Shown here piece after piece: positions 9,340 to 45,697 of a DNA stretch of 64,000 nucleotides; within the stretch, counting starts at the first letter, position 1; every line of letters starts with the position of its first letter. The stretch comes from Fibrobacter sp. UWB13 (GTDB lineage Bacteria; Fibrobacterota; Fibrobacteria; Fibrobacterales; Fibrobacteraceae). The notes beneath the pieces are model-generated. The model worked only from the letters and a program-made list of their open reading frames with translations, had not been told where the DNA came from and searched no databases. The DNA lies in assembly GCF_900177805.1 (NCBI RefSeq), contig NZ_FXAX01000004.1:62001-126000 (forward strand), given 5' to 3'. The position numbers and the translations under genes were made by a program.

Positions 9340-11763
9340 CTAATTTTTGATACAGCGAACGGAAAGTCCATCATTCTTGTTGTTGCTATATAAAATTCTT
9401 ATACTATTGAGGGTGTAAGTCAAACTCGTCGCATACGAAGATTCAGCATCTTCCTCATCATCAGCCCAGAAATGCATGTAGCCACCCGCTTCTAAATATT
9501 TTCCAGTATGACTTCTATAACCTACAGGAATAGCAGAAAAACCATAAGTATCCGCATTTCTCGAATTATTATACCAACCAATTTGTGATTTTAACGCAGA
9601 GCCCCCAGTGCCATTACTTTCTGCAGTAGCAGATAACGTGAACAGCTCACTTTTATTAGGTAAATGCCAACCTTCAGGACAAATACCCTGCACGACACTC
9701 GGAATCGCACATTCATGACCATAACCGCAATCCCTAGCTGCTAGTTGCACAGAATCGATAGCTGCGCTCCAAGTATACAAACGACCAGCAACTTTACATT
9801 TTTCAGATTGATCTCCATAGCACCAACTCCGCCCTTTTAAACTTGGAGTTTTTACGCTGTCGGCATAGTTAAGGTTTTGTGCCATCCAAACTTGATTGCT
9901 GATTTTTACGGTTTTGTAAACTTGTCCGTCACGACTATCGACAAAAGAACCATATTCAATATTTGAATTTAAATATTTTTCTTTAGAAATACTCCAGTCA
10001 AATGTCTCACAGGATTCACGTTCTTCACTACACAACAAAGAGATTGATGAAGCAACCGGTTCATTTCTGACACAACGGACAGCATAATCATCGATTTTTG
10101 CACCGTATTGCATGAAGGCTTCATTAGATTCAAAATCCAAGAGCAATTTATACACATAATCGTAAGCTGAATCATCTTCAACATCAGTCGAAGTCCAAAA
10201 ACCAGCATTCTTGTTTATGTTTTTAAAAGCACCTTCATAATTCCTATTACCTACGGGTAAAGCACTAAAACCAAGTGGATCTGTATTATTTTTATTACCA
10301 AACCAGCCATCCTGTGACTTAAGAGCCTCTCCAGCCAAAGTAATATATCCACCACCTGCAATTACTAACATTTCATTCCATTCCGTCGTATCGGGCAAAT
10401 GCCATCCATCAGGGCAAACCCCCTGTACTGGGTATGCCGGAGAACACACCAAGCCATTTCCACATCCATTTTTAACAGAATCCATCGCAGCAGCCCAAGA
10501 ATAAAGGCGACCATATTTTTCGCAATAAATCGTACTATCATTATAACAGTAACTATTCTTCGCTTCATAATTCAAGTTCTGAGCCATCCACACTTGAGAG
10601 CCAATCTTTACAGTTTTGTAAACTTGTCCGTCACGGGAGTCGGTCATTTCACCGTAATTGATGTTTGGATTCAGGTAAGAGTTTGTCACACTGCTACTGG
10701 ATTGCTTCGCTTCGCTCGCAATGACGGAGGAGCTACTACTAGATTCCGGGTCAAGCCCGGAATGACGAGACGAACTGCTGCTAGAAGAGGGGAGATTCCC
10801 GCTCGAGGCGGGAAAGACAGAGCTACTACTAGATTGCTTCGTTTCACTCGCAATGACGTTACTAGAAGATGATCGGCTTTCACTGCTCAAGGTAACGCTA
10901 TCGCCATCCGCAAGTGCTTTCACGTACGTTTCGAATGCAGGTACAGAATCGGTGAGGTTCCAGCTTTCGATGTTCTTGCGGATTGTATCGAGTTTACCGG
11001 TAGCTGTAGCGTTTGTAGCCCAGTTTGCAATTTCCGTTTTTTCTTTATCATCCAATGAACCATTCTGCGATATTGCAACAGAATATTTATCCAAGCGTTC
11101 TGCAAGTTTCGCCTCATTCGCATTTGCCTGCACAAGCACACTCACGGCAAGGAGCGCCGCATTTCCATCGCCATTTTCAAAGATGTTCAAATCTTCGGAC
11201 AACGCATAATCGCCATTTACATTAAACGAAGCAAGCACTTCCTTTTCAGCTTGCTTTTTCGCATCAGCAAACGACATTTTTTCTTCTGACACGAGATGCA
11301 TCACGCGCTTGTATTCAAGTTCCGTGAGCATGTTGATATTCACATGTTTGCGGTCGCTCAAATCTGAAATTGCATGGAGAGTCACCTCGTCCGCCGACTT
11401 TTTACCCGTCACTTCATTGAAGTAATAACCGGTCACTTCGAACAAAGCGCATGTCGCCGAGAGGTTCACATCGTCAATGCCAAAGTCGCCCTTGTCGCTC
11501 TTGACCGTACCTTCGAAAATTTCACCGGTCAATTCCATCGTTTGGCAATCAATACCCTGCACCGTCACCGCAGAGCCCTTGACAAAAGGCCCCTTCTGCG
11601 AAACGCCCGCCACATCCAAATCCTTGACAGCGTAAATGCCTGCATCATCCGAAGAACCGCCCGCGACCTTGTCATCGGAGCATGCTGAAAACATCGACAA
11701 AAAAGCAAACGCCAACGCGAAAGCAAAAATATCCCCAAAAATTCTAAGCTCGTTTCTTTTCAT
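9340..11763 (-). CDS. Surface lipoprotein with two Fib_succ_major domains and a repeat-built linker (module A)
   Basis: 807 residues with lipobox MFSAC. The shared N-terminal domain (VAGVSQKGPFVKGSAVTVQG to about residue 280) is very close to that of the next gene, in places about 95% identical in DNA. The linker (about 290-365) is largely made of translated dispersed repeats: VIASETKQS, FPASSGNLP, HSGLDPES and VIASEAKQS separated by Ser runs. Two TIGR02145 domains follow (QVWMAQNLNYEAKNSYCYND...CPDGWHLPDTTEW; QVWMAQNLNYADSVKTPSLK...CPEGWHLPNKSEL), each ending in VRC. The ATG at 11763 overlaps the end of the regulator gene by 20 nt in another frame, indicating translational coupling. Likely anchored in the outer membrane; ligand unknown. 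Confidence 0.88.
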   Translation of the reverse strand: MKRNELRIFGDIFAFALAFAFLSMFSACSDDKVAGGSSDDAGIYAVKDLDVAGVSQKGPFVKGSAVTVQGIDCQTMELTGEIFEGTVKSDKGDFGIDDVNLSATCALFEVTGYYFNEVTGKKSADEVTLHAISDLSDRKHVNINMLTELEYKRVMHLVSEEKMSFADAKKQAEKEVLASFNVNGDYALSEDLNIFENGDGNAALLAVSVLVQANANEAKLAERLDKYSVAISQNGSLDDKEKTEIANWATNATATGKLDTIRKNIESWNLTDSVPAFETYVKALADGDSVTLSSESRSSSSNVIASETKQSSSSSVFPASSGNLPSSSSSSSRHSGLDPESSSSSSVIASEAKQSSSSVTNSYLNPNINYGEMTDSRDGQVYKTVKIGSQVWMAQNLNYEAKNSYCYNDSTIYCEKYGRLYSWAAAMDSVKNGCGNGLVCSPAYPVQGVCPDGWHLPDTTEWNEMLVIAGGGYITLAGEALKSQDGWFGNKNNTDPLGFSALPVGNRNYEGAFKNINKNAGFWTSTDVEDDSAYDYVYKLLLDFESNEAFMQYGAKIDDYAVRCVRNEPVASSISLLCSEERESCETFDWSISKEKYLNSNIEYGSFVDSRDGQVYKTVKISNQVWMAQNLNYADSVKTPSLKGRSWCYGDQSEKCKVAGRLYTWSAAIDSVQLAARDCGYGHECAIPSVVQGICPEGWHLPNKSELFTLSATAESNGTGGSALKSQIGWYNNSRNADTYGFSAIPVGYRSHTGKYLEAGGYMHFWADDEEDAESSYATSLTYTLNSIRILYSNNKNDGLSVRCIKN
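10699..10857 (-). repeat. Cluster of four dispersed repeat units inside a coding linker
   Basis: On the minus strand: a GTCATTGCGAGTGAAACG...CAATC unit (10832-10857), a CCCGCCTCGAGCGGGAATC palindrome (10794-10816), a GTCATTCCGGGCTTGACCCG...AATC palindrome (10742-10766) and a GTCATTGCGAGCGAAGCG...CAATC unit (10699-10725). All are translated in the same frame relative to their GTCAT ends and are separated by AGTAGTAGC-like Ser codons. Confidence 0.8.
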
Positions 11764-12616
11764 TTCTCTCTTCCTTATTTTTTAAAGCCTTGTTTGCAAC
11801 TTCTAAATTTTCGCTTATCGGGAATAGTTGCAAATTCAAACGGTACACGCGCTGCGTTTCGCTATTTTCCGTAGCAATCGCAATAATGCGGCGACGGCAT
11901 TCCAAAAGTTCCGTCTTGATTTTTTCGTAAGAATCCTGCGTCAGCCCAAGGACAACTCCCGACATGGAGCGTTCCGCAAGCGGCAAGTCCAAAGCCTTCA
12001 CGGCAAGCTCACCCATCTGGCGCTGCAAATCTTTCGCGGCAATCGGCACCGTATCCACGGAGCCCATCGATATGGACTTGTCCGTCTGTACGTAATTTCC
12101 ATTACGGTCTTTTTTCAGGAGATTCGCATCTTCCAAAAATTCAAGCGTTTCAACGGCTTCCGCTGTAGAAATTTTCGGTTTACACGCACGGGCCATTTCG
12201 GCAGGCCTTGCGCCAGGCATATTCGGGGCAAGCTCGCGGAGCAACGGATTTTTCCAAGACTTGTAGTAATCGAATTCTTCGCCACCGAGAACACGGATCT
12301 TATGCGCTCTAGCCAATGCACAGCGTTTTTCGAACGCCGCCATTTTGGCTTCGTCCCCTTTGGCATGGGCGTACGTCACCATCAAAACAAAATACGTCTT
12401 TTCGAATCCAGCAAGGCCCATGGCGTTCGCAACAGAACTTGCGGCACTAACGCTCAGATTCTTTTTTCCTTCAGCAACATACTTCAAAAAAATTGCCGAT
12501 GCGAAACCGGCATTCTGAGCAAACTCACGCCAAGTAAAAGCGGAGTCGCGCTTGCGTTCATCGTAGTAATCCTGGATGAACTTGCGATAATCTGTATATT
12601 CAACAATCGCCTTCAT
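11744..12616 (-). CDS. TIGR02147/DUF4423 regulator of module A
   Basis: 290 residues, the usual length of the Fsuc_second family. The N-terminus MKAIVEYTDYRKFIQDYY is conserved in the three other copies. Residues about 28-75 (TWREFAQNAGFASAIFLKYV, then EGKKNLSVSAASSVANAMGL) look like an XRE-type helix-turn-helix. The middle carries a winged-helix-like stretch (LEDANLLKKDRNGNYVQTDK) and the C-terminus the RRRIIAIA...VYRLNLQLFPISE signature. It is probably a DNA-binding cytoplasmic regulator acting on its own operon. First gene of module A; its 3' end overlaps the lipoprotein start. A TATATTTG box lies 5 nt before the ATG, so the transcript may be leaderless. Confidence 0.88.
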   Translation of the reverse strand: MKAIVEYTDYRKFIQDYYDERKRDSAFTWREFAQNAGFASAIFLKYVAEGKKNLSVSAASSVANAMGLAGFEKTYFVLMVTYAHAKGDEAKMAAFEKRCALARAHKIRVLGGEEFDYYKSWKNPLLRELAPNMPGARPAEMARACKPKISTAEAVETLEFLEDANLLKKDRNGNYVQTDKSISMGSVDTVPIAAKDLQRQMGELAVKALDLPLAERSMSGVVLGLTQDSYEKIKTELLECRRRIIAIATENSETQRVYRLNLQLFPISENLEVANKALKNKEERNEKKRA

Positions 12617-12652
12617 GATTACAAATATAGTTTTTCAATAATATTGGAATAC
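12617..12652 (-). promoter_or_regulatory. Module A core promoter with proximal operator half-site
   Basis: Minus strand: TATATTTG at 12622-12629, exactly 5 nt before the regulator ATG. The half-site (GGAATAC on the plus strand, 12646-12652) lies between this box and a TTTTTG element about 22 nt upstream, so a bound protein would compete with or contact RNA polymerase. The placement is the same in modules B and C. Confidence 0.5.
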
Positions 12653-12718: not shown

Positions 12719-12745
12719 AGAACACAAGTTGTATCCCTGGAATAC
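12719..12745. promoter_or_regulatory. Module A distal operator candidate
   Basis: AGAACAC (12719-12725), then an imperfect inverted repeat GTATCCC-T-GGAATAC (12731-12745). The right arm equals the proximal half-site at 12646-12652. It directly abuts the A-tract of the module B terminator. Confidence 0.5.
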
Positions 12746-18252: not shown

Positions 18253-18290
18253 ATTTTTACCATTCCTTCTCATTTCATCTTATAAAAGCA

Positions 18291-27621: not shown

Positions 27622-28515
27622 TTAAACCTTCTCCTCATTCCTAACATTTTTATTTGATTCCGAAACCACTTCCGCATTTTCGTTGCGGTCAGAGCGATTA
27701 TCAATTCGTTCGCTCAGCGGGAACAACTGCAAATTCAGGCGGTACACCTGTTCTGTCTCATCGTCCTCACTCGCAATCGCCACAATACGACGGCGAAAAT
27801 CCGCGATTTCTTTCCTGATTTTTTCGTATGCACGGCGCGTAAGCCCCATGGTAAGCCCCGACATGTCACGTTCCGAAAGCGGCAAGTCCAAAGCCTTCAC
27901 CGCAAATTCCCCCATTTCACGTTGCATATCGCGAGCCGCCACAGGCACTGCATCGACCGACCCCATCGATAACGACTTGTCCGTCTGTTCGTAGTTTCCG
28001 CTCTTGTCCTTCTTCAAGAGCTTAGCGCGTACCAAAAAGTCAAGCGTCTCGGAGACCTCCGCCGCAGAAATCTGCGGCTTGCACTTGCGAGCCATTTCAA
28101 GAGGCTTGGCACCAGGCATATGCGGAGCAATTTCGCGCAGCACCGGATTTTTCCACGACTTGAAATAATCGAATTCCTCGTTCCCGAGCACACGCACCTT
28201 GTGGGCATGCGCGAGCGCACAGCGTTCTTCGAACGCGGCTCGTCTCGCCTTGTCATCTTTCGCATGCGCATACGAAACCATCAGAACAAAGTACGTCTGT
28301 TCGAACCCGGCAAGCCCCATCGCCGCAGCAACGGACCCTGCCGACCCTACACTCAGATTCTTTTTGCCCTCGCAAACGTACTTCAAATACACAGCCGACG
28401 AAAATCCCGCATCGCGGGCAAACTCGCGCCACGTAAAAGCCGAGCTGCGCTTGCGTTCATCGTAGTAATCCTGGATGAACTTGCGGTAGTCTGTGTATTC
28501 TACAATCTCCTTCAT
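27622..28515 (-). CDS. TIGR02147/DUF4423 regulator of module B
   Basis: 297 residues from MKEIVEYTDYRKFIQDYYDE; an upstream ATG at 28533 is rejected because it lies upstream of the TATATTTG box. HTH-like region TWREFARDAGFSSAVYLKYV, then CEGKKNLSVGSAGSVAAAMGL; wing-like LVRAKLLKKDKSGNYEQTDK; C-terminal VYRLNLQLFPLSERID plus about 20 extra charged residues. The putative recognition helix is nearly that of the module A regulator (SA[VI][YF]LKYV), and the two modules share the GGAATAC half-site. Cytoplasmic DNA-binding regulator, probably of its own 16-kb operon. Confidence 0.88.
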   Translation of the reverse strand: MKEIVEYTDYRKFIQDYYDERKRSSAFTWREFARDAGFSSAVYLKYVCEGKKNLSVGSAGSVAAAMGLAGFEQTYFVLMVSYAHAKDDKARRAAFEERCALAHAHKVRVLGNEEFDYFKSWKNPVLREIAPHMPGAKPLEMARKCKPQISAAEVSETLDFLVRAKLLKKDKSGNYEQTDKSLSMGSVDAVPVAARDMQREMGEFAVKALDLPLSERDMSGLTMGLTRRAYEKIRKEIADFRRRIVAIASEDDETEQVYRLNLQLFPLSERIDNRSDRNENAEVVSESNKNVRNEEKV

Positions 28516-28584
28516 GTGTACAAATATAGACATTTCCGCAGTTTTCGGAATACAAAAATAGCGTTTTTAGCCAAATTTTACCAT
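28516..28584 (-). promoter_or_regulatory. Module B promoter region with proximal operator half-site
   Basis: Minus strand TATATTTG at 28521-28528, 5 nt before the regulator ATG; GGAATAC half-site (plus strand) at 28547-28553; a TTTTTG element 24 nt upstream of the box. The 24 bases at 28561-28584 are identical to 35111-35134 in module C, a conserved AT-rich block of unknown role. Confidence 0.5.
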
Positions 28585-28616: not shown

Positions 28617-28645
28617 AGAACACAAAGTCCGTATTCCAGGAATAC
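28617..28645. promoter_or_regulatory. Module B distal operator candidate
   Basis: AGAACAC at 28617-28623, then a perfect inverted repeat GTATTCC-A-GGAATAC at 28631-28645. Start-to-start distance of the AGAACAC and GGAATAC boxes is 22 bp, about two helix turns. Confidence 0.55.
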
Positions 28646-34208: not shown

Positions 34209-35066
34209 TCATTTCATTTCTCCCTTTTTATTCGTCTTCTCGTTTTTAGATCCCAGCCATTCACTCAACGGGAACAATTGCACATTCAGGCGGTAGACCT
34301 GTTCCGTTTCGTCTTCCTCCGTCGCAATCGCCACCACGCGACGGTAATAATCTTCGGTCTCTTTCTTGATGCGTTCGTACGCACGGCGCGTAAGGCCAAG
34401 CGTGTATCCCGACATCATGCGTTCCGCAATCGGCAAGTCAATGGACTTAAGGGCAAATTCACCCATCTGGCGTTGCAAATCGCGTGCCGCCAGCGGCACG
34501 GCCTCTATAGGCGCCATCTTGATTGCCTTATCCGTCTGGTGGTAATTGCCGTCGCGGTCCTTTTTCAAAAGCTTCGCCTTTACCAAAAAATCGAGCGTCT
34601 CGGAAACCTCTGCCGCCGAAATCTTCGGTTTGCAGGCATGGGCAATTTCCAACGGCTTTGCGCCAGGCATGTGCGGAGCAAGTTCACGCAGCACCGGATT
34701 TTTCCACGACTTAAAATAATTGAATTCATCGCTCCCCAGCACACGCACTTTGTGTGCATTTGCAAGTGCATAGCGTTCCTCGAACGCAGCCTTTTTAGCC
34801 TCGTTGCTTTTTGCATGCGCATACGACACCATCAAGATAAAGTAATCGTACTCGAAACCGACCAGCCCCATCGCGGTCGCCACCGAGCCCGCCGACGCGA
34901 TACTCAGATTCTTTTTCCCCTCGCACACATACTTCAGGTACACATCCGACGAGAAACCCGCCTTCTGGGCAAACGCGTGCCACGAAAACGCGGAACAGCG
35001 CTTGCGTTCATCGTAGTAGTCCTGGATGAACTTGCGATAATCTGTATATTCAACGATTTCCTTCAT
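34209..35066 (-). CDS. TIGR02147/DUF4423 regulator of module C
   Basis: 285 residues from MKEIVEYTDYRKFIQDYYDE; an upstream in-frame ATG at 35144 would cross the promoter box and is rejected. HTH-like region SWHAFAQKAGFSSDVYLKYV, then CEGKKNLSIASAGSVATAMGL; wing-like LVKAKLLKKDRDGNYHQTDK; C-terminal YYRRVVAIATEEDETEQVYR, then LNVQLFPLSEWLG. Compared with the A and B regulators, the presumed recognition helix has Asp (SSDVYLKYV) where they have Ala, and the operator half-site changes from GGAATAC to AGAACAT. Confidence 0.88.
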   Translation of the reverse strand: MKEIVEYTDYRKFIQDYYDERKRCSAFSWHAFAQKAGFSSDVYLKYVCEGKKNLSIASAGSVATAMGLVGFEYDYFILMVSYAHAKSNEAKKAAFEERYALANAHKVRVLGSDEFNYFKSWKNPVLRELAPHMPGAKPLEIAHACKPKISAAEVSETLDFLVKAKLLKKDRDGNYHQTDKAIKMAPIEAVPLAARDLQRQMGEFALKSIDLPIAERMMSGYTLGLTRRAYERIKKETEDYYRRVVAIATEEDETEQVYRLNVQLFPLSEWLGSKNEKTNKKGEMK

Positions 35067-35134
35067 GTCTACAAATATACCTTTTCCAGCACTTTTAGAA
35101 CATAAAATTGGCGTTTTTAGCCAAATTTTACCAT
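35067..35134 (-). promoter_or_regulatory. Module C promoter region with proximal operator half-site
   Basis: TATATTTG on the minus strand at 35072-35079, 5 nt before the ATG. AGAACAT half-site at 35097-35103, at the same distance from the start codon as GGAATAC in A and B. The block at 35111-35134 is identical to that of module B. Confidence 0.5.
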
Positions 35135-35167
35135 TTTTCGCCAAAATTTTAAAAATTTCAATATTCT

Positions 35168-35195
35168 AGAACATGGTTGTATGTTCTGAGAACAT
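35168..35195. promoter_or_regulatory. Module C distal operator candidate
   Basis: Two AGAACAT boxes 21 bp apart (35168-35174 and 35189-35195). The second is the right arm of a perfect palindrome ATGTTCT-G-AGAACAT (35181-35195); the first sits in TTCTAGAA. Directly downstream of the module D terminator. Confidence 0.55.
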
Positions 35196-37696: not shown

Positions 37697-38557
37697 TCAC
37701 TCCCCTCTATTTTTTGATAACACATCCATATCGCCATATTCAATCTTTTCCGTCAGCGGGAAAAGTTGCATATTCAAGCGGCAAACTTTTTCAATCTTTT
37801 TGTCGGCAGAAACAATCGACACAATGCGCTTGCGGAACGCCGCAATTTCATCCACAACCTTCTTGTAGCTTTCGGCTGTCATGCCCATCGTGATGCCGCT
37901 AAAGTGGCGTTCCGAAATAGGCAATTTATCCAAAGCGTCAAGCGCAAACTCGCCCATCTGGCGCAACAGCGAATGCACCGCCACGGCCACCACATTCAAA
38001 TTTCCCGTCGAAAGCGAAGTACTCGTCTGGTGATAATTCCCTTTGATATCGCGAGTCAAAAGCCCAGCCTTGAGCAAAAAGCGCAAGCTATCACTGACAT
38101 CCGCAGCAGAAATCGCAGGCTTGCACACTTTGGCAATTTCGTTCGGCTTTGCGCCCGGCATAGCCACAGCCAATTCACGAACAACAGAATGCTTCCAAGT
38201 CTCGTAGTAAGTGTACATCTCGCTGCCGAGAATTTTCACGCGATTCGCTTCACCAAGCGCCTGCATTTCCTCAAAGCACTTCTTCTTTTCCTGTTCCGTC
38301 TTTGCTCCCTCATAACGTACCAGCAAAACGAAGTAATCCAATTCATAGCCAAGCAAGCCCATTGCAAGTGCAGTCTTTTTCGCTCCTTCTTCGCGAAGAC
38401 GCGTCTTGCCATCACATACAAGTTTCAGGTACGAACCCGACGCAAATCCAGCCACCTTCGCAAATTCTCGCCACGTAAACGCAGAACAACGCTTGCGTTC
38501 CTTGTAGTAATCGAGAATATACTCGCGATAGTTTTTGTATTCTGTAACCGTTTTCAT
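37697..38557 (-). CDS. TIGR02147/DUF4423 regulator of module D
   Basis: 286 residues, the most divergent of the four: MKTVTEYKNYREYILDYYKE, HTH-like region TWREFAKVAGFASGSYLKLV, then CDGKTRLREEGAKKTALAMGL; wing-like LLKAGLLTRDIKGNYHQTST; C-terminal VCRLNMQLFPLTEKIEYGDM. The operator region also differs: no clear proximal half-site at the usual place, and a TTCTATAGAA palindrome upstream. The box 5 nt before the ATG is TATTTTTA rather than TATATTTG. The stop overlaps the possible GTG start of the lipoprotein. Confidence 0.87.
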   Translation of the reverse strand: MKTVTEYKNYREYILDYYKERKRCSAFTWREFAKVAGFASGSYLKLVCDGKTRLREEGAKKTALAMGLLGYELDYFVLLVRYEGAKTEQEKKKCFEEMQALGEANRVKILGSEMYTYYETWKHSVVRELAVAMPGAKPNEIAKVCKPAISAADVSDSLRFLLKAGLLTRDIKGNYHQTSTSLSTGNLNVVAVAVHSLLRQMGEFALDALDKLPISERHFSGITMGMTAESYKKVVDEIAAFRKRIVSIVSADKKIEKVCRLNMQLFPLTEKIEYGDMDVLSKNRGE

Positions 38558-38570
38558 GATATTAAAAATA
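38558..38570 (-). promoter_or_regulatory. Module D promoter box
   Basis: TATTTTTA on the minus strand at 38563-38570, 5 nt before the regulator ATG, the same spacing as TATATTTG in modules A-C but a weaker match to TAnnTTTG. Confidence 0.35.
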
Positions 38571-38698
38571 GAAACACTGGATTAAGCATGCAATAGCATT
38601 TAATATTTTTTCAAAAACAAAAATGGCGATTTTAAGCATATTTCAGCACTTTTCAAAAGATATTAAAGAAAATTCAAAAACATAAAACAAAAATTGAA

Positions 38699-38710
38699 TT
38701 CTATAGAACA
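38699..38710. promoter_or_regulatory. Module D distal operator candidate
   Basis: TTCTATAGAA palindrome (38699-38708) overlapping AGAACA (38705-38710), placed directly beside the U-tract of the decarboxylase-operon terminator, as in the other modules. Confidence 0.4.
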
Positions 38711-38738
38711 AAAAAAATCCCCCGGCAAAAGCCGAGGG
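38711..38738 (-). terminator. Terminator of the decarboxylase operon
   Basis: Minus strand CCCTCGGC-TTTT-GCCGGGGG followed by eight T. Confidence 0.8.
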
Positions 38739-43626: not shown

Positions 43627-45648
43627 CTAGTTCGCGTACCCAGACTTGAGACCGCGAATAGCGACATAACGGCGATTTCCATCCTTATCGATGATAATCG
43701 CAACACCTGCCAGGTAATTAATCCATTTGCCACCATCATATTTCTTGAGTTCAATCTGCAAGTTTGAGCAGTAAGCGACAAGCGGAACCATCAATTTGTC
43801 ATGCGAACTCAGCAAAACGAACTTTTCTGTCGGGTACTTCTTGACAAGAACATCTTCGATAAGTTCAACGGAACGTTCTGCAAGATCGTAATATGCGGCA
43901 TCGGCACCTGTAGAATAAGCACCCGTATAGGCATACTTGGAAGTCACTTCCCAGCCACCACCGCATTCATTCTTAGCCTTTTCGACAGCTTCGCTATTCT
44001 TAGAATACCAGTCATCGTTCAGCTGCGGGATCGTATCGCGCTTGTCGTAAGATTGTCCACGACCCTTCGCAATGGATTCTACAGTCTGGTGGGCACGCAA
44101 GAATTCAGAAGCACCAAGTACAAAGTCTTCCTTAAACTTCGTGAGTCGAGCGCCAACTTCTTCGGACTGCTTTTTACCGTTATCCGTAAGCGTCCCGCCC
44201 TTGCTTGTATCATCACCACGTTCAGCATGGCGGAGCACAAAGATGACGCGTTCATCGTCCTTGATACTTTCGTAAACATCCTGGATATCCACAAATTCCT
44301 TTGCGTTAGACTCCAAGACAAAATAACGATCTTTTTCAACAGCAGTAGCCTCACGCCATTCCTTCTTTGCTCCATCGTACGTAAAGAATCTGCCCGAGTA
44401 CGCACCACGACGGACTTCGCCATCTTTGGCGGGCGTTTTATCGCCAATGAAGTCCTTCAAGCTATCCGGGATGAGCTCCCAGCCTTTCTTTTCATCACAG
44501 ACAAAGCGGTAAAGTGAATGTTTCTGATCGTCATACGATTCTGCATAAAAAAGACTACTAGCCTTATTCTTGACAAAGAATATTTCCCCAGCAGAACTGC
44601 CATCGCATTCCGGGAACTCCAATTCCGTCAAGGCGAAGTTCGTGAGGTACTTATCAAAGTTTTTATTCTTAGGGAAACGTTCTTTGACGTATGCGAAAGT
44701 GTTTTCATAACCACCAGATATTTTCAATCCAAGTGCATAATCGGCAGCTCTCAAACGAGTCTTTTCGTCATCCCACTTACCATCCTTTGCGACATCGGCA
44801 ACTATAGACTTAAACGTTCCTACAAAATCGTAATTTTCTAGCAAATCAGAACCAGCAGCAAGCTGCAACAAGACTGTAGCCGCCACGAGAGCAGTCCCAG
44901 ACTCACTAGCCTTAGAAACATCAATCGTTTCGGTCTGGTCAAAGTCAAGAGATTCCAGGTGGAACATATTCCACACATCTTCAGCAGCCTTGCTCTTTGC
45001 CAATTCAAAAGAAAGCTTGTCCTTCCCCGCCAGGAGTACACGAGCACGTTCCGTTTCAAGAGTCGTCAAGAGCCCCAAGTTGAACTTTTCATTCGAGGAA
45101 ACATCCCCCAGAGCAGAGAACGTAATCGGAAAAGACTTTCCATCGCTAGGACTTGTTAAGGTTACTTCAGCGGAGACCTGAACAAAAGGCTGAACCAAGT
45201 TGACTTTCTTGAATTCATAAGCGCCATCCTTGCCTATCTCTGCCGAAAAAACGTTTTTCGTTTCATCGTAGTCATCAGCGGAATCCAGCTCCACCATTTT
45301 GACATTTTTGGCACTGGTATAGCTATCCAAACCAACAACACCCAAAACGTTACCATCCCAAACGGAATAGATAACATCGAGGCCATCTTCTACTTCATCA
45401 TCATCAGAACTACTGGATGAGGATTTCTTATCGCTAACACTGCTCGAAGAAGTTTTTTTAGAAACAGAACTCGAAGAGGACTTTGAATCATCCGCTTCGC
45501 TGGACAGTTCCGTATCTTTACCCGATAAATCCGGACTGCTACTAGAATCGTCACCGCACGCCACCAAAAGTGACGTCAGCAAAGCCGAAATCAAAAATTG
45601 GGAGCTTAAAGCATGGCCCTGAAAAATTTTCCGAGAAAAAATTCCCAT
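43627..45648 (-). CDS. Lipoprotein with a histidine-phosphatase domain (paralogue)
   Basis: About 673 residues. Signal with lipobox LLVAC followed by a Ser-rich linker, an N-terminal domain distantly like QKGPF domains (VVGLDSYTSAKNVKMVELDS, LLTTLETERARVLLAG), and a C-terminal histidine phosphatase: LRHAER (His474), LRAHQTVES, LLSSHDKLM (His616). The acidic residue of the PEL motif in the downstream paralogue is Gln here (IPQLNDDW), so activity may be altered. Both paralogues keep the unusual C-terminal WINYLAGVAIIxxxDG. The ATG at 45648 is chosen (AAGGGG 7 nt upstream); a TTG at 45669 is the alternative. Confidence 0.82.
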   Translation of the reverse strand: MGIFSRKIFQGHALSSQFLISALLTSLLVACGDDSSSSPDLSGKDTELSSEADDSKSSSSSVSKKTSSSSVSDKKSSSSSSDDDEVEDGLDVIYSVWDGNVLGVVGLDSYTSAKNVKMVELDSADDYDETKNVFSAEIGKDGAYEFKKVNLVQPFVQVSAEVTLTSPSDGKSFPITFSALGDVSSNEKFNLGLLTTLETERARVLLAGKDKLSFELAKSKAAEDVWNMFHLESLDFDQTETIDVSKASESGTALVAATVLLQLAAGSDLLENYDFVGTFKSIVADVAKDGKWDDEKTRLRAADYALGLKISGGYENTFAYVKERFPKNKNFDKYLTNFALTELEFPECDGSSAGEIFFVKNKASSLFYAESYDDQKHSLYRFVCDEKKGWELIPDSLKDFIGDKTPAKDGEVRRGAYSGRFFTYDGAKKEWREATAVEKDRYFVLESNAKEFVDIQDVYESIKDDERVIFVLRHAERGDDTSKGGTLTDNGKKQSEEVGARLTKFKEDFVLGASEFLRAHQTVESIAKGRGQSYDKRDTIPQLNDDWYSKNSEAVEKAKNECGGGWEVTSKYAYTGAYSTGADAAYYDLAERSVELIEDVLVKKYPTEKFVLLSSHDKLMVPLVAYCSNLQIELKKYDGGKWINYLAGVAIIIDKDGNRRYVAIRGLKSGYAN

Positions 45649-45697
45649 AGAAAAACCCCTTACCTTCAAGTTTTAACACACTTAAACACCCCGTAAT

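Follow-up and report, generated by a model that had tools for sequence, protein, structure and literature searches.

Predicted leaderless regulator mRNAs and a Bacteroidota-like promoter box at the start codon in Fibrobacter

In four TIGR02147 regulator genes of Fibrobacter (A-D), a Bacteroidota-like promoter box was found 5 nt before the ATG, and a well-supported prediction from the sequence comparisons is that the mRNAs of these regulators are leaderless, with transcription starting either at the A of the ATG or on the nucleotide preceding it. The box, TATATTTG or more generally TAHHTTT, would constitute the -7/-10 element of the main Fibrobacter promoter type. By its placement at A-D and in about one in ten of the promoter-proximal genes, the box would direct RNA polymerase to initiate on the A of the start codon or on the base immediately preceding. 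The resulting mRNA would be leaderless and without a Shine-Dalgarno (SD) site, and it would be translated via direct recognition of the 5'-terminal AUG; this mode of translation is deduced from the predicted absence of a leader. Most other genes of the same genome would keep their leaders, many of them SD-led. The promoters of A, B and C are probably autoregulated as well, via TRTTCY operator sites at set distances from the start. Taken as a whole, the proposal of a Bacteroidota-like box at the ATG, leaderless regulators and probable autoregulation of A-C is considered highly probable.

The analysed stretch of DNA, referred to as the window, comprises 64 kb (C4:62001-126000) in a genome of 3.8 Mb. 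The coordinates of the features are presented in Table 1. The TIGR02147 (Fsuc_second) profile scores of the four window regulators were 300.9, 334.5, 327.4 and 291 bits (curated cut-off 50 bits), and all four were aligned from residue 1. According to the profile search, DUF4423 was present in all of them, and FISUMP and GLUG proteins were their neighbours. Together with a regulator of 96% identity from a Fibrobacter assembly, these neighbours assign the window to the genus Fibrobacter. The literature search resulted in no paper naming TIGR02147 and in no promoter or operator description for the TIGR02147/DUF4423 regulators of Fibrobacter.

The ATGs of A-D given in Table 1 are very likely the true starts, since the family profile begins at residue 1 and the start is kept in the relatives. 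This applies also to regulator B, despite a further in-frame ATG at 28533, 18 nt upstream of the listed one; the use of 28533 as the start of B would put the box inside the ORF, which counts against the proposal. The open frame of regulator C extends to a TTG at 35144.

Table 1. Regulators A-D, their start codons, predicted transcription start sites (TSS), boxes and operator-like sites in the window. Distances are given from the ATG.
Feature	Position	Strand	Remarks
Regulator A, TIGR02147 (Fsuc_second)/DUF4423, 290 aa	11744..12616	-	profile matches
ATG of regulator A	12614..12616	-	predicted TSS 12616 or 12617; basis: profile start, initiator and spacing data, PMC6847099
TATATTTG promoter box of regulator A	12622..12629	-	5 nt before ATG
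TATTCC half-site, regulator A	12646..12651	-	-35; in the -35 region of the predicted promoter
TGTTCT half-site, regulator A	12719..12724	-	-108
Operator-like palindrome TATTCCAGGGATA, regulator A	12732..12744	-	about -128
Regulator B, TIGR02147	27622..28515	-	ATG at 28515; predicted TSS 28515 or 28516
TATATTTG promoter box of regulator B	28521..28528	-	5 nt before ATG
TATTCC half-site, regulator B	28547..28552	-	-37
TGTTCT half-site, regulator B	28617..28622	-	-107
Operator-like palindrome TATTCCTGGAATA, regulator B	28632..28644	-	-129
Regulator C, TIGR02147	34209..35066	-	ATG at 35066; predicted TSS 35066 or 35067
TATATTTG promoter box of regulator C	35072..35079	-	5 nt before ATG
TGTTCT half-site, regulator C	35097..35102	-	-36
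TGTTCT half-site, regulator C	35168..35173	-	-107
Operator-like palindrome TGTTCTCAGAACA, regulator C	35182..35194	-	-128
Regulator D, TIGR02147	37697..38557	-	ATG at 38557; predicted TSS 38557 or 38558
TATTTTTA box of regulator D	38563..38570	-	followed by ATATC, then ATG

In the preliminary description, exactly 5 nt separated the box from the ATG in A, B and C, and a related box had the same spacing in D; both placements were confirmed. On both strands of the 64-kb window, TATATTTG occurred three times, always on the minus strand and at A-C, with 2.2 copies expected from shuffles. As neither TATATTTG nor TAnnTTTG was enriched by count in the window, the case for the box depends on where it lies. 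The three boxes of A, B and C cannot be counted as independent, these genes being close paralogues; conservation extended over the whole region upstream of the regulators and was not limited to the box. No SD was detected before the ATG of A, B and D, and the loose SD match of regulator C was the AAGG directly 5' of the box, the spacing of which is not proper for an SD. The contrast drawn earlier with SD-bearing lipoprotein and GLUG neighbours stood in part: a clear SD was determined at 11763, 9295, 6995, 23642, 31938, 34212 and 37700, whereas the SD was weak or missing at 18273, 20189, 25252 and 27704.

Genome-wide, the TATATTTG-N5-ATG pattern was matched 20 times and the reversed-pattern control once. 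Within 464 kb of the genome, all the ORF-opening ATGs located up to 25 nt from TATATTTG were at distance 5 (7/7). The genome-wide scan of spacings 0-24 resulted in a peak of 18 at N5 among the 100 ATG pairings listed, and the other spacings gave 0-8. Many of the TATATTTG-N5-ATG matches open genes unrelated in function, among them genes which we take, by eye from the sequence and not from a family search, to be prfC, proA, dgt, aroC and uvrA homologues. The trait, initially tied to the regulators, represents a Fibrobacter-wide promoter class, although the regulators are enriched in it.

The gene-start set consisted of 627 genes predicted by our own script from 864 kb of sampled stretches, the start codons being predictions of the script. 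The strongest non-SD word at the gene starts was TATATT, ending 7 nt before the start. A blind two-motif EM with random initialisation, performed on 436 promoter-proximal starts, yielded two motifs only, the SD (weight 0.51) and CTATATTT (weight 0.21). The latter, C-T-A-t-[a/t/c]-T-T-T or the TAHHTTT box, ended 5-6 nt before the start with the peak at 6, and the frequencies of G at the two variable positions of TA[T/a][A/T/C]TTT were 0.06 and 0.00. The looser EM class had a high null rate, with 92 called compared to 43 in shuffles. Due to this substantial false rate, the strict count of TAnnTTT at d=4-6, 47/624 genes compared to 7-17 at shifted positions, is taken as the safe estimate.

The strict box was detected in 22 of the 174 divergent genes but in 7 of the 172 genes located at most 30 nt behind a co-directional gene. 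An SD-like string was present in 2 of the 47 box-bearing (TA-led) genes and in 298/624 overall; the box itself fills the SD space. Upstream of leadered genes, the box was likewise enriched (37 vs about 21), whereas TATAAT was not (20 vs 18), which supports the box as the usual promoter element in this organism. A strong -35 element was not observed, the signal being a weak TT at -36/-35 relative to the ATG, and TTG-N17/18-TAnnTTT was not enriched in leadered genes. A search of the assembly for the 16S 3' end pattern gave no match, and the use of SD sites was shown by the EM motif instead.

Within the regulator family, the strict box was determined in 16 of the 36 full-length TIGR02147 paralogues, corresponding to odds ratios of 9.8 compared with all genes and 7.5 compared with promoter-proximal genes, the certainty of which is overstated as paralogues are not independent. 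Among the 48 ATG-starting regulator relatives of other Fibrobacter genomes, 46 carried TAnnTTT at exactly -13 to -7, in 35 cases as TATATTTG, and an SD-like string before the ATG was scored in one only of the 46 box-bearing relatives. The regulator relatives in other genera of the class varied: TATATTTG and TAGATTTG were detected at N5, for example, and others had looser matches or none. In the SD-led paralogues L018 and L019, TATATTTG was located farther upstream and the ATG was preceded by an SD of the AGGAGG or AGGAGGT type. L018 belongs to a cluster of four SD-led TIGR02147 paralogues (L010, L011, L013 and L018; C1 about 2.110-2.122 Mb). The family looks to use both the leaderless-looking mode, as in A-D, and the SD-led mode within one genome.

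The distribution of TATATTTG-N5-ATG in the phylum was compared with that of a control pattern in 100 genomes. The counts were 474 vs 52 in the 35 genomes of the genus Fibrobacter, 81 vs 8 in other genera of Fibrobacteraceae and 16 vs 2 in the rest of the class. The enrichment in other Fibrobacter and Fibrobacteraceae genomes was about 9-10-fold. In the 41 distant genomes of other classes of the phylum, no enrichment of the pattern was detected (131 vs 121).

A pyrimidine preceded the ATG in each of the 46 box-bearing regulator relatives and in 23 of the 27 TA-led genes with N5. An A at this position was found in 2 of the same 27 genes compared with 181 of 538 other genes. A pyrimidine-purine initiator is expected at a transcription start, and the pyrimidine before the ATG fits the A of the ATG as +1. 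In Flavobacterium johnsoniae, transcription starts 4-5 nt after the TAHHTTTG box (PMC6847099), and in F. psychrophilum the promoter box is located at -12 to -5 (PMC9723704). This distance combined with the N5 spacing would make the A of the ATG, or the base preceding it, the first transcribed nucleotide. The literature search found no transcription start map and no mapped 5' ends for Fibrobacter. The original reading of a Bacteroidetes-type -7 box with the TSS at or next to the A of the ATG gains support from the fixed 5-nt spacing across the genome and the genus, the near-exclusion of SD, the preference for divergent genes, the pyrimidine at -1 and the box upstream of SD-led paralogues.

Regarding the first codons, A, B and C open with ATGAAGG (12608-12616, 28507-28515 and 35058-35066), and most regulator relatives open with ATGAAGGA, resulting in an SD-like AAGGA right behind the start. 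The Lys of codon 2 is encoded by AAG in A, B and C; AAA is about 3-fold commoner at codon 2 genome-wide (74 AAA, 25 AAG). The SD-like AAGGA in codons 2-3 was rejected as a general trait of leaderless genes, codon 2 of TA-led genes being AAA in 9 and AAG in 2 cases.

Alternatively, the AU-rich box could be a translation element on a leadered mRNA, e.g. an S1-binding or Bacteroidetes-type AT-rich ribosome site, rather than a promoter. The box sits at the SD position, and Bacteroidetes and other non-SD bacteria prefer an AU-rich stretch near position -10 relative to the start codon (PMC5397173). However, a translation element should need no exact spacing of 5, no invariant T-A-n-n-T-T-T core and no preference for divergent first genes, and it would leave unexplained the pyrimidine at -1, as well as the occurrence of this box 20-50 nt in front of SD-led genes. 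This explanation is considered very unlikely. It is likewise very unlikely that transcription starts from a promoter farther upstream, the regulator leader being ordinary (at least 50 nt) and the box an operator or a relic. The conserved blocks upstream, such as GGTAAAA near -66 and the half-sites at -129 and -107, are in accordance with such a promoter, but unrelated housekeeping genes carry the same box 5 nt from their ATG without those blocks, and just one box-bearing regulator relative has an SD-like string. Chance or shared ancestry, i.e. an accidental match in the AT-rich upstream sequence of three recent duplicates, agrees with the close paralogy of A, B and C and with the unremarkable count of TATATTTG in the window, yet it is hardly credible given the positional enrichment genome-wide, genus-wide and family-wide and the motif obtained de novo.

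Besides the promoter box, TRTTCY half-sites were detected at about -129 (usually as the full palindrome TRTTCYNRGRAYA), -107 and -36 from the ATG in A, B, C and most of 50 relatives. The palindrome occurred 7 times by strand in the window compared with 0.19 expected. A wider regulon is not claimed from the palindrome search, as only 10 distinct sites were present in the genome, including the three at A, B and C. The fourth palindrome of the window, TATTCTAAGAATA at 43995-44007, lies inside a long minus-strand ORF (43627-45669). In module D (38557-38720), no palindrome corresponds to that at -129 in A-C, and the only site is a TGTTCT at about -153. Conserved A-rich positions were observed between -91 and -50 upstream of the regulators.

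The three half-sites at set distances are described here for the first time and suggest autoregulation of A-C. Autoregulation would be the simplest reading of the arrangement, in which the -35 region of the predicted leaderless promoter contains one putative site, the remaining ones possibly being placed for co-operative or looped binding. More tentatively, and with less than an even chance in our estimation, Fibrobacter and its relatives may run SD-led leaders alongside a sizeable leaderless class from Bacteroidota-type promoters, the TIGR02147 family preferring the leaderless mode with autoregulatory operators (-129, -107 and about -36) spaced from an ATG that is also the TSS, possibly forming a repression loop. 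If true, the translation of the regulators would track the conditions favouring leaderless initiation.

Fibrobacter is a main rumen cellulose degrader with few genetic tools. The promoter consensus, the predicted leaderless class and the candidate operator for the most expanded regulator family would guide the annotation of gene starts, the design of expression tools and the studies of the paralogous surface-protein modules. The Bacteroidota-type -7 box would also be extended to a lineage still using Shine-Dalgarno sites, which bears on the loss of SD in the FCB group.

The predicted leaderless class would be a new case of an already known kind. It shares with the TA-led leaderless genes of bacteria a constant distance between a -10-like TAnnnT box and the start codon, the lack of an SD and the presence of SD-led genes elsewhere in the genome (Zheng et al. 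2011, PMC3160421). The -10 box of TA-led genes is located about 10-12 nt before the start codon (PMC3160421); with about 10-13 nt taken as the range, the T of TA was at -13 in A-D and in 46/48 relatives, and the scarcity of SD-like strings (2/47 vs 298/624) is likewise in accordance with this class. In contrast to their TAtaaT, the Fibrobacter box is TAHHTTTg with T at position 5. In the survey of Zheng et al., leaderless genes of Bacteroidetes/Chlorobi were reported in 1/37 genomes, and Fibrobacter is unnamed in the main text (PMC3160421).

The sigma-ABfr promoters of Bacteroidota consist of TTTG (-33) and TAHHTTTG (-7) (PMC6847099, PMC9723704, PMC7366714). The similarity of the Fibrobacter box comprises the TAHHTTTG consensus, which the blind EM motif reproduced, and the avoidance of G at positions 3-4. 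It may extend to a -33 element that is weak or absent: the search for TTTG at -33 gave the weak TT described above, and Flavobacterium likewise has a weak -33 motif (PMC6847099). The primary sigma factor belonging to this promoter type lacks region 1.1. In the Fibrobacter genome, three short RpoD-like proteins (L147, L148 and L149; about 290-300 aa) were found; neither these nor any other protein scored above the RpoD_Cterm cut-off. Their length resembles that of the short sigma-ABfr of Bacteroidota. The mRNAs of Bacteroidota are mostly leadered and without SD, about 4-13% having leaders of about 10 nt or less (PMC6847099, PMC9723704, PMC7366714), whereas Fibrobacter has many SD-led genes together with a distinct set carrying the box at the ATG.
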